Shown here one piece after another: positions 7,449-12,786 of a stretch of DNA of 64,000 bases. The stretch lies in contig NC_014166.1 of assembly GCF_000092245.1 (NCBI RefSeq), forward strand, positions 2,914,001-2,978,000, given 5' to 3'. The position numbers and the translations under genes were made by a program. Source of the stretch: Arcobacter nitrofigilis DSM 7299. Lineage in GTDB: Bacteria; Campylobacterota; Campylobacteria; Campylobacterales; Arcobacteraceae. The first letter of the stretch is position 1, and each line of letters starts with the position of its first letter. Under the pieces are notes generated by a model. The model was not told the origin of the DNA. It searched no databases and saw only the letters and a list, made by a program, of their open reading frames with translations.

Positions 7449-7475
7449 TTAGCACTCATAATCTTAAACTGCTAA
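7449..7475. promoter_or_regulatory. CIRCE operator 1 (HrcA binding site)
   Basis: TTAGCACTC, 9 bases, then AACTGCTAA. The left arm is a perfect match to the CIRCE consensus TTAGCACTC-N9-GAGTGCTAA and the right arm matches 7 of 9. It covers the region just downstream of the predicted transcription start and lies 21 bases upstream of the chosen hrcA start. Confidence 0.85.
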
Positions 7476-7478
7476 ATA

Positions 7479-7508
7479 ATTATACTCAATTGAGTGTTTA
7501 TTTGTCAA
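7479..7508 (-). promoter_or_regulatory. Sigma-70 promoter of the hrcA-grpE-dnaK operon
   Basis: On the minus strand TTGACA (7508-7503) is followed after 18 bases by TATAAT (7484-7479), a perfect match to both consensus hexamers. The start point is predicted near 7471, inside the right arm of CIRCE operator 1. The spacer contains the 12-bp palindrome ACTCAATTGAGT. Confidence 0.88.
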
Positions 7509-7515
7509 GTATTTT

Positions 7516-7542
7516 TTAGCAATTAATTAATAAAAGTGCTAA
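7516..7542. promoter_or_regulatory. CIRCE-like operator 2, upstream of the promoter
   Basis: TTAGCAATT, 9 bases, then AAGTGCTAA: 7 of 9 and 8 of 9 matches to the CIRCE arms with the exact N9 spacing. It sits just upstream of the -35 box, so the promoter lies between two HrcA sites whose centres are 67 bases apart. Confidence 0.75.
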
Positions 7543-7633
7543 TTTGTTATTTAGACTTGAGTTAGAGGGGTTTATAGAAACTTAATTTTAAGTAAATTTG
7601 GAATAAAAAGATACATGAGAAATGAATTTTTGC

Positions 7634-8196
7634 TCTCTTGAAGACTTAGCAGTCTTCGCTTTCTTACTTTTGTATTGACGAAAAGTAAGCAAAAACAACT
7701 ACGGCTGCGAAGCCAAAGGTTCCCTCCCTTATTATTTTTATTTTTTCTACTTGCTAAAACTCATTTATTAAAACTTGCGTTTAGCAACTTTTAAACATTC
7801 AGACAGTTAGCAAGCTTGTCTAGAAAAAAGAAAAATAAACATTCGGCTTCTGTAGATGTAGAAAGAAATCTCTTCGGTTGTTAGTTTATCTGTAAAGTCG
7901 CATATTAGGTAGAGTAAGTAAAAGTAAGAACAAAAGACAATCAAAAATGCAAATGTCCTTATCCCACCTTTGATTCCAACATTTACAAAAGCCGAATGTT
8001 TATTTCTCTTTTCGGAAAAGAGTTACAACTGTTTGAGTAAATAAATGTGCTAAATGCACATTTATTTATGAGTTTTGTAACTTAGAAAAGATAAATAATA
8101 AATGAGGGAACCCAAAGGGCTTTGATACGGTTGGTGGTTTTGTTTACTTTGTCCACACAAAGTAAGAGAAGCGGAGAGGTTTACCTCTTCAAGAGA
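7634..8196. repeat. Long imperfect palindrome built of nested hairpins, non-coding
   Basis: The 659 bases between operator 2 and the HNH gene contain no credible gene. Almost all of it folds back on itself. Outer ends TCTCTTGAAGA (7634-7644) and TCTTCAAGAGA (8186-8196) are exact complements. Inner arms 7833-7859 and 7979-8005 pair at 24 of 27 positions. The segments between them pair imperfectly in register. The unpaired centre is about 7860-7978. Local hairpins lie within each arm: 7663-7689 (9-bp stem), 8144-8165 (8-bp stem) and 8038-8068 (13-bp perfect stem, 5-base loop). It looks like two inverted copies of a roughly 230-base element. It could be a MITE-like or REP-like repeat, or a structured RNA. 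No transposase is present. Confidence 0.75.
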
Positions 8197-8201
8197 AAGT
8201 A

Positions 8202-9128
8202 TTATATTAAATTCAATTCTTCACTAATATCTTTTATCAACTTTGAAAGTGGTCGTTTATTTATATCTTTATCTTCTATATATCCACCAGTTATATGGCG
8301 TAAAACATCTTCACGATTTTTAAACAGAGTTCCCTCATATTTTTGAAAAAGTTCATCAACATAACTTTCATTATAAACTTGTGCTTTTTGGATAAGTTCT
8401 AGGGCGATGTCTTTGTGATTAGAATATAAATCTTTCAATTCAAAAACTTTTCTATTATTGACTATTCTCTTTTTTTCTTCGTAACTCACATCTTTAGTAA
8501 ATTTATATTTTAAATCAAAACCTTTTTGCGAATAAATAAAAGAAGCGTCATTAATTTTAAATGTAAATTTAGCATTTTTATTAAAATCAAATCTATCATC
8601 ATATGGATTGATATATTGTTTATCTTCATCAGATTTAAGCTGATTACACACTTTACAAGAGGGAATAAGATTATAAAAACTCATTGCAAAAAAAGGATAT
8701 TTACTTTGTGCATAAAAATGGTCTAATTCACTCGTTCTTTTTTTTGAGTTTTTAATGTTATAAATTCCATTTCTATTGCAATATGGACAAGTCGAAATAT
8801 TTAATGATTTTACCAATTCAAAGGCATTATAATATTCATTTTCATATTTGAATTTATCTTTTTTATTAAAATAACCATACAAGGTTTGGAAAAATTTAAA
8901 ACCATTACAACACTTTGATTTATATATTTTTGAAAGATATTCCAGTTCATTTGGTTTTGCCAATATTAGCTTTTTAAAATCCCAATTATCATTAAAACAG
9001 ATTTTAACTTGACTATCTAGTAACTCAATTGTATATTTGCTGCTTTTTGTTTTTTTAATATACTCAGCTATGGCTTCATAATGTTTATTGGCTAATTCTT
9101 CTAAATTATCTTTTTGGATTCTAATCAT
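8202..9128 (-). CDS. HNH endonuclease, PtuB-like (Septu-type defence effector)
   Basis: A 308-residue protein with an HNH/zinc-finger nuclease core: Cys114-x2-Cys117, the metal-binding Asp136-His137, Asn153 and Cys158-x2-Cys161 followed by Asn162. This is the arrangement found in PtuB of Septu and in the HNH effector paired with type I retrons. It would cut DNA once released or activated by its ATPase partner. Its ATG overlaps the stop codon of the HEPN gene (TAATG), so it is translationally coupled as the last gene of the operon. The split ATPase of the same operon is the expected partner. The target and trigger are unknown. Confidence 0.8.
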   Translation of the reverse strand: MIRIQKDNLEELANKHYEAIAEYIKKTKSSKYTIELLDSQVKICFNDNWDFKKLILAKPNELEYLSKIYKSKCCNGFKFFQTLYGYFNKKDKFKYENEYYNAFELVKSLNISTCPYCNRNGIYNIKNSKKRTSELDHFYAQSKYPFFAMSFYNLIPSCKVCNQLKSDEDKQYINPYDDRFDFNKNAKFTFKINDASFIYSQKGFDLKYKFTKDVSYEEKKRIVNNRKVFELKDLYSNHKDIALELIQKAQVYNESYVDELFQKYEGTLFKNREDVLRHITGGYIEDKDINKRPLSKLIKDISEELNLI

Positions 9129-9481
9129 TACTCAAAATCAGCACTAAGTTTTAGAATCTTTGTTTCAAGTTCTTCTAGGCTATCTCTTAAAATATCTTCC
9201 ACAATTGCTAATCTAACTCTTTCATAATCATGAGCTATAAAATTTCTTACATCATAAGAACCTTTAGCTTCTTGTGTCAAATTATATTTATCTATAATTT
9301 CTTTATCAATTTTATTTAGACTTTCTCCAATTTGAAGTAAAGCCATCAATATTGCAGGTTGGGCTTCTAATTCATCTTCAAGTGCTTTTACTATTCCACC
9401 ATGTTTTAAAATAATTCTTTTTATATTATCTATCATCTTTAAGATAAATTTTGTTTTTGCATAAGTTGAGATATTAGACAT
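9128..9481 (-). CDS. HEPN-domain RNase toxin, HepT-like (DUF86)
   Basis: A 117-residue all-helical protein with the HepT catalytic signature R-x4-H-x-Y, here Arg79, His84 and Tyr86 in RNFIAHDY. HepT toxins are RNases neutralised by a neighbouring MNT nucleotidyltransferase that AMPylates the tyrosine of this motif. The MNT gene lies directly upstream and overlaps by 8 bases, as expected for such a pair. What is unusual is its position between the ATPase and the HNH gene of a Septu-like operon. All key residues are intact, so the toxin is probably active. Confidence 0.85.
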   Translation of the reverse strand: MSNISTYAKTKFILKMIDNIKRIILKHGGIVKALEDELEAQPAILMALLQIGESLNKIDKEIIDKYNLTQEAKGSYDVRNFIAHDYERVRLAIVEDILRDSLEELETKILKLSADFE

Positions 9482-9791
9482 ATTTTACTTCTTTTAAAAT
9501 AAACTCTTTTCCAATCTCATTTAAAGTATCTTTATCTACAAAATCAACCTCTTTTTGCAACTCTTTTTTTAAAAATTCTTTTGTATCCGCAAGTTTTGAG
9601 AAAGCAGTAAATCCTTTATATTTTTGCATAAAGGCTTTTATATCTTGTATTTCATAGAGAATATCAATATCACTATTATGAGTATAATCTCCCCTTGCAT
9701 AAGAGCCAAATACACCTAAAATATTTATTCCATCACAATTAAGCATAGGTTTGATGAGTTTTAATTTTTCATAAATATCATTGGCACTCAT
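9474..9791 (-). CDS. MNT-domain nucleotidyltransferase antitoxin, MntA-like
   Basis: A 105-residue minimal nucleotidyltransferase. The motif GS-x10-D-x-D is exact (Gly29-Ser30, Asp41 and Asp43, in GSYARGDYTHNSDIDIL). MntA enzymes transfer AMP to the tyrosine of the HEPN toxin and so block it. It begins two bases after the stop codon of the ATPase C-terminal frame and overlaps the HEPN gene, so all five frames of the operon are coupled. The pair could be an independent addiction module that joined the operon, or a regulatory layer of the defence system. The sequence cannot decide between these. Confidence 0.85.
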   Translation of the reverse strand: MSANDIYEKLKLIKPMLNCDGINILGVFGSYARGDYTHNSDIDILYEIQDIKAFMQKYKGFTAFSKLADTKEFLKKELQKEVDFVDKDTLNEIGKEFILKEVKYV

Positions 9792-9792
9792 T

Positions 9793-11112
9793 TTATTTTT
9801 TCCCTTCTAATTTTTCTAGTTTTTCTGTTAATTCTTTAATTTCTTCTTTTATTGTATCAATTTCTTCTTTATTTGACAACTCCATTTTATTTTTTAGCAT
9901 TCTTTGTAATTCTCTTTTTATAATAGGTTCACCTATTATAGAGATAATATTTTCACAATAATCCAATTCTTCTTTTGAAATCGCTTTTTGATTTAAGTAT
10001 TTTATAGCTTTATCAATTTTATCTTTCGCAAACTCACCCATAAGCCCATCTTTCATAAAAAAACCATGGGAAAGTAAAGTGTGGATATTTGCTCCAAAAG
10101 TTTGTTGATTATCTTCAAACGGATAAACTTGTTTTCCTTTTTCTAAAAATATTACATTTTCTTTTGGCAAATCAGAAAGGATGAATGGTGAATGTGTTGT
10201 TATAATAAAATGTATATTAATTGAATATGCACTTGATATATCTATTAAAACACTTAGTAATTTTTTTTGCCAATTTGGATTTAAATTATTTTCTATTTCA
10301 TCTAATAATATAAATATATTTCTTGATAGTCCATCCTTTTCTCTCAAATTAATAATATCAATTATAGAATAAGTAATTTCTAGTAAAGATTTTTCTCCTG
10401 TACTTAATTCAGAATAATAATCTACTCCTGAACTATAAAAATCTAATTCTAGGAATTTAGGTAAATTTTTTATTAACTCTATATATTTATGATTTTCTTT
10501 TAATCTATTTATTGATATTGAACACAATTCATCATATGTGTAGTTTAATAGATATAATAAATCATCAATCTTTTTTAATAGATTTAGTGATTTTTTAGCT
10601 TCTATTAGAATTTCAACTTTTTCATTATATCTATTTGTTTGTGTAGCTTTTTTTTCTTCTTCTTCTTTTATTTGATTAAGATATTTATTATCGAATAATT
10701 GTTTATAGAGGTTTACTATTATTTCTTTTATATTAGGATTAATAAAATCTTCTTCAGAAATTTCTTTTACATCCTCAAATTTATAGATAGATTGTAGATA
10801 TATAAAGGTATCTAAAAGTAATAATTCTTTAGGGCTTAAAGTCTTTTTTAGTTTGCTTCTATATTGTTGAAAATATTTTACATAACATTTATGTTTAATA
10901 TTTTTGTTAAAACTAATTGATATATGTCTAGGAACAAAAAATTTTTTATTATTAATTTTTTCATAAAATTTATCTATGGTTAATGAAATTAATTTTTTTT
11001 TAATTTTTTTTTCTTTTTCTTTTATATATAAAATATTTTTACCTTTATTTGGTTCAGTTAATATATTTTCATATTCATTATAGATTCCAAATCGATTTTC
11101 TAAAATCGGCAT
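9793..11112 (-). CDS. PtuA-like ATPase, C-terminal frame (Walker B half)
   Basis: A 439-residue frame that lacks an N-terminal Walker A. It carries the ABC-type signature LSTGEKSLL, Walker B with catalytic glutamate (FILLDEIENNLNP), an H-loop (ITTHSPF) and a C-terminal coiled coil (KEEIDTIKEEIKELTEKLEK). These features match the OLD/PtuA-like AAA ATPases of Septu. The missing N-terminal part is the frame at 11100-11531. A -1 shift at 11136-11142 joins them, adding eight codons before this frame's ATG, into one 579-residue ATPase. The ATG at 11112 is an internal methionine of the fused protein and has no strong ribosome-binding site, so separate translation is less likely. Confidence 0.8.
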   Translation of the reverse strand: MPILENRFGIYNEYENILTEPNKGKNILYIKEKEKKIKKKLISLTIDKFYEKINNKKFFVPRHISISFNKNIKHKCYVKYFQQYRSKLKKTLSPKELLLLDTFIYLQSIYKFEDVKEISEEDFINPNIKEIIVNLYKQLFDNKYLNQIKEEEEKKATQTNRYNEKVEILIEAKKSLNLLKKIDDLLYLLNYTYDELCSISINRLKENHKYIELIKNLPKFLELDFYSSGVDYYSELSTGEKSLLEITYSIIDIINLREKDGLSRNIFILLDEIENNLNPNWQKKLLSVLIDISSAYSINIHFIITTHSPFILSDLPKENVIFLEKGKQVYPFEDNQQTFGANIHTLLSHGFFMKDGLMGEFAKDKIDKAIKYLNQKAISKEELDYCENIISIIGEPIIKRELQRMLKNKMELSNKEEIDTIKEEIKELTEKLEKLEGKK

Positions 11113-11531
11113 ATCAACATCATTCTTATAATGATAAAAAAAGAATTGTTTGTTATCTCATTTGGTAGTTGTACGGTTGAGAAATTATAGTTTATAGTTA
11201 GTTTTGAATCTTTACTTTTGGGGATATTTGAATAAAGTTGTTTAGTTTTATTATCATATAGACATATTTTATAATCAAATTGTTTTAAAGGAAAATCTAA
11301 TATTTTTCCCAATAACTTACTCTTTCCACTTCCATTCTCACCAACTATAGCAGTAACATTTATATTATCACAAAAAAAGTTTTTGGGATAAACTTCTCCA
11401 ATTTCTTCTTTATCAATAATTTTTAATTCATTCTTATCTTCATCATACGTACACTTAAATCTAGGAGAAAAATTAAACCCTTGATGATATATATTCTTAT
11501 AATCCTCAACCCACAAATAAACCAATTCCAT
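11100..11531 (-). CDS. PtuA-like ATPase, N-terminal frame (Walker A half)
   Basis: A 143-residue frame starting MELVYLWVEDYKNI with an AAAGAG ribosome-binding site. It holds the Walker A P-loop GENGSGKS (residues 64-71) typical of SMC/ABC-like ATPases. Homology to the ATPase core ends at about residue 132, after which the frame runs into eleven unrelated residues and a stop. The rest of the ATPase continues in the -1 frame. It is the first gene of the defence-like operon. A product ending here would have a P-loop but no Walker B, so it could not hydrolyse ATP alone. Confidence 0.8.
   Translation of the reverse strand: MELVYLWVEDYKNIYHQGFNFSPRFKCTYDEDKNELKIIDKEEIGEVYPKNFFCDNINVTAIVGENGSGKSKLLGKILDFPLKQFDYKICLYDNKTKQLYSNIPKSKDSKLTINYNFSTVQLPNEITNNSFFIIIRMMLICRF
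11136..11142 (-). other. U7 slippery tract / homopolymer at the ATPase frame change
   Basis: Seven As on the plus strand (seven Us in the mRNA) lie exactly where the two ATPase frames must be joined. In the zero frame they are read as UCU UUU UUU AUC. A -1 slip on UUU UUU continues as UAU CAU UAU AAG and enters the C-terminal frame. One extra base in the tract would give the same result. This fits programmed -1 frameshifting, slipped-strand phase variation, or a sequencing error in a homopolymer. Confidence 0.65.
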
Positions 11532-11708
11532 AATAACTCTTTAAATAAAATATTTATAGATATGTTACAAGAATATAATTTAAAAGTTTCAGTACATAAT
11601 TTATAATACAATCTTTTTCTTGACATATTGACGATATTCGCCTACGATTATAAAAAATAAATTTAAACAAATACGACCCAAGAAATAAGACAATTCCCTA
11701 TAAAAGCC

Positions 11709-12527
11709 TTATTCCTTAGCTTTTAAATACTCAATATTCTTATCATCAACTAATATCTTCATTTGATTAATTGCTACTTGATTTAGCTTAATCAACCTTT
11801 TAGCTTGACTCAAACCTTCTTCAATAAATAAAGCATTTAAACTCTCTAAATTTGCCAAGCATACCAACTGTGAAACATCTGCATAATCTCTTATATTACC
11901 TTTATTTGTAGGATTAGATTCTTTAAACTCTTTGGCTGTTTGTCCAAATAGTGCAATATTTAATATATCGGCTTCACTTGCATATACATAGTTAATTTGT
12001 GATTGATTTACAATATTAGGAATAATATTGTTTTTTATGGCATCCGTATGTATTCTATAATTTATTTTTGTTAGATTTCTTTTTATATCCCAACCTAACT
12101 GTTTATATTCTTCCTCTTTTAATCTTTGAAACTCTTTTATAAGATAGAGTTTCAACTCAACAGATACCCATGAAGCAAATTCAAATGCTATATCTTTATG
12201 GGCATAAGTTCCACCATATCTTCCTGATTTAGAAATTACACCAATGGCACCAGTTTTTTCACACCATTTTTTAGCACTCATTGTAAAACTATTAAGTCCT
12301 GCATCATTTTTAATAAGGTCGAATTCGACGGGTTTAAAATCTGCATTATTTAATTTTTCCCAAAGTCCTAAAAACTCTATTGTGTTTCTATTCCTAAACC
12401 AATTCTTTATTATATCATTAGCATCAACTTCATCTTTGTATTTTGCAATATCAGTGATACTAATATAATCATCTTGATTTATTTTCTTTGTTGATATACT
12501 TTTGTTCAATACTGTTATATTATCCAT
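11709..12527 (-). CDS. KilA-N domain protein
   Basis: A 272-residue protein from the ATG at 12527, which has AAGG 9 bases upstream. The longer frame from 12578 adds a hydrophobic leader without a ribosome-binding site, and I reject it. The N-terminal 120 residues form a KilA-N DNA-binding domain (DYISITDIAKYKD, then ISKSGRYGGTYAHKDIAFEF and ASWVSVELKLYLIKEFQRL). A helical C-terminal region follows. KilA-N proteins occur in phages and in bacterial chromosomes near mobile or defence genes. It stands alone upstream of the defence-like operon on the same strand, 177 bases away, and may regulate it or be unrelated. Confidence 0.8.
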   Translation of the reverse strand: MDNITVLNKSISTKKINQDDYISITDIAKYKDEVDANDIIKNWFRNRNTIEFLGLWEKLNNADFKPVEFDLIKNDAGLNSFTMSAKKWCEKTGAIGVISKSGRYGGTYAHKDIAFEFASWVSVELKLYLIKEFQRLKEEEYKQLGWDIKRNLTKINYRIHTDAIKNNIIPNIVNQSQINYVYASEADILNIALFGQTAKEFKESNPTNKGNIRDYADVSQLVCLANLESLNALFIEEGLSQAKRLIKLNQVAINQMKILVDDKNIEYLKAKE

Positions 12528-12662
12528 TTTATACAACCTTATTATTTTTATGCAGTTTAACAAAAAAATAAAAAACACTTTAAAAATATTTCATTTTGTT
12601 ATATCTATTGTATTAAAAGAATGTTATTTAAAAATTAGCATTTTGCCATTTTAATAAAAAAC

Positions 12663-12786
12663 AAAAAAGCCATATTTTTAGTAAGGTCAAGGAAGAGGAA
12701 TCAATTTGGGAAGGAACATACAAGTAGTATGTGACTGAGTAAATTTATTATTCTGACGCAGAAATTGCTAAAAAGATGGCTTTTTT
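12663..12786. repeat. Short element bounded by 19-base inverted repeats
   Basis: Left arm 12663-12681 and right arm 12768-12786 match at 18 of 19 positions as inverted repeats (AAAAAAGCCAT, one mismatch, then TTTTTAG). The 86-base interior contains a smaller hairpin, ACATAC-AAGTA-GTATGT (12715-12731). Read on the minus strand it starts at the stop codon of the 118-residue protein gene and ends in GGCTTTTTT, so it could work as an elaborate terminator. A structured RNA or a small mobile repeat is also possible. The gap 12528-12784 holds no gene. Confidence 0.6.

Follow-up and report, generated by a model that had tools for sequence, protein, structure and literature searches.

How did the Walker A and Walker B motifs of one ATPase come to lie in two reading frames, and is the break a means of control or an accident? 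The question is raised by a locus of DSM 7299T, type strain of the harmless salt-marsh species Arcobacter nitrofigilis; it lies in the window analysed here, a stretch of 64,000 nucleotides (NC_014166.1, positions 2,914,001 to 2,978,000) from a genome of 3,192,235 bases in one contig. Two minus-strand ORFs, one frame apart and overlapping by 13 bases, carry the two halves of the protein (Table 1), and their translations bear out the preliminary description in placing Walker A and Walker B in different frames. At the joint the minus strand reads TCTTTTTTTATC, with exactly seven T in the run. Since a single short stretch is open in both frames, limited upstream by a TGA (11160-11158) and at its other side by the TAG of ORF1, the frame change must fall inside it. 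Re-reading one base at T7 gives a single frame of 579 residues, which runs through the eight codons YHYKNDVD into the downstream methionine, so that the exact join at U UUU UUU proposed earlier also holds. The final 11 residues of ORF1 are out of frame. Longer runs within the same gene, A8 and A9, are in frame.

Table 1. Features of the ATPase locus, in window coordinates
Feature	Position	Strand	Description
Operon leader	11532-11588	minus	Kept in two sister species ahead of different cassettes
ORF1	11100-11531	minus	143 aa, N-terminal part of PDC-M62A (PtuA-like) ATPase; Walker A GENGSGKS
Dual-open stretch	11103-11157	minus	Only part with both frames open, 55 bases; contains T7
T7 run	11136-11142	minus	Site of frame loss; T8 in nearest relative
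ORF2	9793-11112	minus	439 aa, C-terminal part of the same ATPase; ABC signature STGEKS, Walker B LLDEIEN
MntA-like nucleotidyltransferase	9474-9791	minus	Intact; between ATPase and nuclease genes; Pfam NTP_transf_2 above cut-off
HepT-like HEPN protein	9128-9481	minus	RX4HXY motif intact; Pfam HepT-like above cut-off
PDC-M62B (PtuB-like) HNH nuclease	8202-9128	minus	Intact; PDC-M62B 2.5e-69

The ATPase is PADLOC PDC-M62A, a component of a Septu/PtuAB-like ATPase-HNH system. Both ORFs match this one profile of 601 positions, ORF1 over positions 1-107 (1.5e-33) and ORF2 over 194-595 (1.1e-74). The Walker A, signature and Walker B motifs expected of a PtuA-like protein are all present, shared out over the two ORFs. 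A Septu-type system is expected to have an uninterrupted ATPase, whereas the deposited sequence has it in two frames, so the claim made here is that of a broken or OFF Septu-type (PDC-M62) member. A published survey counted 203 PDC-M62 calls that duplicated Septu calls (PMC11811056). A PDB search with the family profile matched retron Ec83 and Ec78 PtuA among the first solved structures, as well as Rad50/SMC heads. The predicted model of an intact relative, which is weak (mean pLDDT 66), had Septu PtuAB as its first structure match. These results support the link to defence made in the preliminary description, the gene being the ATPase of a Septu-like operon.

The four genes of the operon (ATPase, MntA, HepT and HNH) directly adjoin one another or share a few bases. 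As in Septu (PtuA-PtuB) and in the PtuAB of retrons Ec78 and Ec83, an SMC/ABC-like ATPase and an HNH nuclease share one operon; the nuclease scores slightly under the cut-off of Pfam HNH. The A. nitrofigilis operon differs from Septu in its broken ATPase frame and in the MntA-HepT pair between the two genes, and, unlike retrons Ec78 and Ec83, it has no reverse transcriptase among the neighbouring ORFs. The pair resembles the type VII toxin-antitoxin MntA-HepT in its adjacent nucleotidyltransferase and HEPN genes and in the motifs GSX10DXD (MntA) and RX4HXY (HepT), read by eye in the translations. It differs in lying inside a Septu-like operon and in having NCBIfam scores below the curated cut-offs. 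The operon is thus Septu-like, with the frame of its ATPase broken. The gene order ATPase - MntA - HepT - HNH (window 9793-8202) is also found in three or more other genomes (L084 7108-9440; L030 5001-7276; L055 5001-7388; L042 5001-7057). Across these operons MntA/HepT identity is 88-91% in two genomes and 57-60% in L055; in L042, HepT is shortened and the HNH gene is frameshifted.

The ancestral state of the joint is indicated by the nearest relative (L029, from a marine biofilm MAG), which is 53% identical over the whole length and aligns over residues 1-576 in one frame. At the joint it reads SSFFYHYKNDLSLPIL; its run there is T8, against T7 in the window, and the surrounding sequence is the same. 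The single frame with T8 in this relative makes the unbroken state the ancestral one, and because L029 has the eight bridging residues at the corresponding place, YHYKNDVD belongs to the protein. It is the only relative with a good alignment over the tract. When the variable middle of the protein was used to search the whole phylum, one further genome gave a close match, identical in sequence to L029. Among about 39 distinct relatives with the gene start covered, 33 have the gene as one uninterrupted ORF, between about 480 and 680 residues long. One of these is the sister species G032, whose ATPase-HNH pair lies intact at the same locus, with flanks 90-92% identical. No ATPase relatives were found in viral contigs, by protein or by tract sequence, and a search of phages and plasmids returned distant ATPases only. 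The family alignment (A1, window 11600-10450) is conserved at its ends and highly variable in its middle, which is perhaps the part that senses phage.

Other members of the family are also broken: in G006 the break lies at a poly-A run, G020/L054 and L067 have frame changes, L027 has a stop, and a transposase gene has probably inserted into L058. These scattered breaks suggest that the defence gene is lost time and again, by any available route. The A. nitrofigilis protein, read through the joint, has no second frame break. Of the family-invariant positions it keeps 49 of 50, and of the near-invariant ones 91 of 92; this conservation indicates that the break is young. Decay of the read-through protein was considered and rejected, the only change in an invariant column being H406N, within the range of intact relatives, many of which show as much. 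The one-base event is therefore recent, or else an error.

Direct observations are the frame break, the nearest relative's in-frame T8, and a protein and operon that are otherwise intact. The explanation we favour, with a probability of about 0.62, is that this PtuA-like gene carries an accidental T8 to T7 OFF allele, revertible in principle and with trace leakage. An ancestral T8 would have lost one T, breaking the frame; ribosomes would then translate 143 residues and stop. Judging from the sequence, little or no working ATPase would be made and the ATPase-HNH arm would be off in DSM 7299T. Slow reversion through expansion of the tract may be expected by analogy with Listeria inlA, in which reversion of an A6 tract to A7 was measured at 5.5e-7 (PMC2831843). 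There too a short A/T run differs by one base in an otherwise intact gene; polymorphism between strains is a feature of inlA, the A. nitrofigilis tract having been read in one strain. Slippage of RNA polymerase or of the ribosome on the U run could yield a trace of full-length protein, probably below about 1%. For E. coli RNA polymerase, at least seven T are needed, and one T7 run gave insertions in 0.75% of transcripts (PMC6260861). The slippage-rescued genes of Citrobacter rodentium (tssM) and Blochmannia (poly-A genes) likewise combine a homopolymer frame break with an otherwise intact gene. Their tracts are longer than the T7 of A. nitrofigilis, whose ATPase, in contrast to these genes, gives no evidence of selection keeping the broken frame. 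No dedicated switch is proposed.

The main rival to an accidental OFF allele is a sequencing or assembly error, the chromosome having T8 and the gene being intact and normally expressed. The DSM 7299T assembly combined 454 reads, weak at homopolymers, with modest Illumina polishing (15.7x), and reports 28 pseudogenes and an error rate below 1 in 100,000 (PMC3035288). The change is one base inside a homopolymer and the remainder of the gene is free of decay, as an error would predict; but the stated error rate is low, the A8 and A9 runs of the same gene are read in frame, and further family members are also broken. Moreover, sister-species ORFs were compared with 444 kb of the DSM 7299T genome, read in stretches. 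They covered 193,222 unique bases, all conserved coding sequence, and no frameshift appeared. This sequence holds 309 A/T runs of at least seven bases, 57 of which reach at least eight. The rule of three then sets an upper limit to the error per run of about 1% for runs of at least seven and 5% for runs of at least eight. As a control, the L029 protein gave the expected two-frame match at the ATPase locus; 'split' flags raised by a first quality check proved to be neighbouring paralogues rather than frameshifts. The absence of frameshifts in 193 kb makes an assembly error less likely. True frame breaks at homopolymers are themselves uncommon, which is why error is still left at about a quarter. 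The gene thus has a recent one-base frame break that is probably a real OFF allele and possibly an error. It seems improbable that the T7/T8 difference truly serves as slow ON/OFF or leaky-dose control, with the intact MntA-HepT pair retaining the cassette while it is OFF and defence returning under phage attack. Equally doubtful is evolved phase variation, in which selection would keep high-frequency T7/T8 switching as ON/OFF control of the defence operon. The tract does lie near the 5' end of a gene whose remainder is intact, G006 of the same family is broken at a poly-A run, and the gene abounds in A/T runs of at least eight, unlike the other ORFs of the window. However, runs of seven are at background, contingency tracts are usually longer than T7 or T8, and elsewhere in the family the gene is disrupted by a stop, an insertion or other frame changes. 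The plus strand of the window holds 71 T runs and 55 A runs of seven or more; window ORFs have 117 A/T runs of at least seven against 119.4 expected from synonymous-codon shuffles, and the ATPase gene has 7 against 7.6. Enrichment of homopolymers in the gene was accordingly rejected as a candidate signal. Window ORFs contain fewer runs of at least eight than expected (21 against 40), a depletion that the ATPase gene escapes with four such runs as sequenced and five with T8. Such runs make the gene prone to indels; they do not show selection for this property. Of the phase switch suggested in the preliminary description, the one-base change in the tract stands, on the T8 of L029; the evolved switch does not, in view of the background frequency of T7 and the unrelated breaks elsewhere.

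Two explanations remain. In the first, a programmed event at U UUU UUU, either a -1 ribosomal frameshift or transcriptional slippage, would determine how much full-length ATPase is made. In its favour, the heptamer has the right phase, a -1 shift yields the full protein, and bacterial RNA polymerase is able to slip on T7 (PMC6260861). Against this, the RNA downstream of T7 folds no better than its shuffles (z 0.01, -0.76 and -0.66) and so offers no stimulatory structure, and T7 runs are common in this AT-rich genome. The split is conserved in no relative, and the same heptamer region in L029 is in frame with T8, where no shift is needed. Programmed frameshifting, as first suggested, is therefore unsupported and very unlikely. 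A search of Rfam gave no match. Least probable of all is a split enzyme, in which ORF1 and ORF2, coupled by their overlap, would both be made and would assemble like separately expressed halves of a Rad50 head. The 13-base overlap and the profile matches to Rad50/SMC heads are consistent with such an arrangement, and the model places the break at a predicted strand, with a poorly predicted insert after it, but the low confidence of that model weakens the argument. Furthermore, ORF2 lacks the strand FFYHYKND, ORF1 finishes it with unrelated residues, and no relative has such a split.

If the accidental OFF allele is real, the locus provides a clean case of a defence gene soon after its inactivation, in a family broken in several ways, and users of the type strain are warned that the Septu-like system of DSM 7299T is probably off. 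It also suggests caution, as homopolymer joins in AT-rich genomes are poor grounds for calling programmed frameshifts. The recurrent Septu-like operon with MntA-HepT between its two genes may be a more useful lead.

Next to hrcA lies a defence hotspot (window 7455-12785; L068 9016-12493; L069 9621-11930). The sister species G032 and G033 both retain the operon leader, and behind this common leader A. nitrofigilis and G032 have different ATPase-HNH alleles, while G033 has at the same spot a P-loop NTPase, called KAP-like by inspection. A KilA-N gene upstream of the operon (window 11589-12612; PADLOC PDC-S22, 3.7e-128) is missing there in both sisters and has about 24 bases of leader-like sequence on both sides. 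An inverted-repeat element (window 7630-8200), without a match in Rfam, has arms of about 230 bases that are 72% alike, and many related copies of it occur in both sister genomes.
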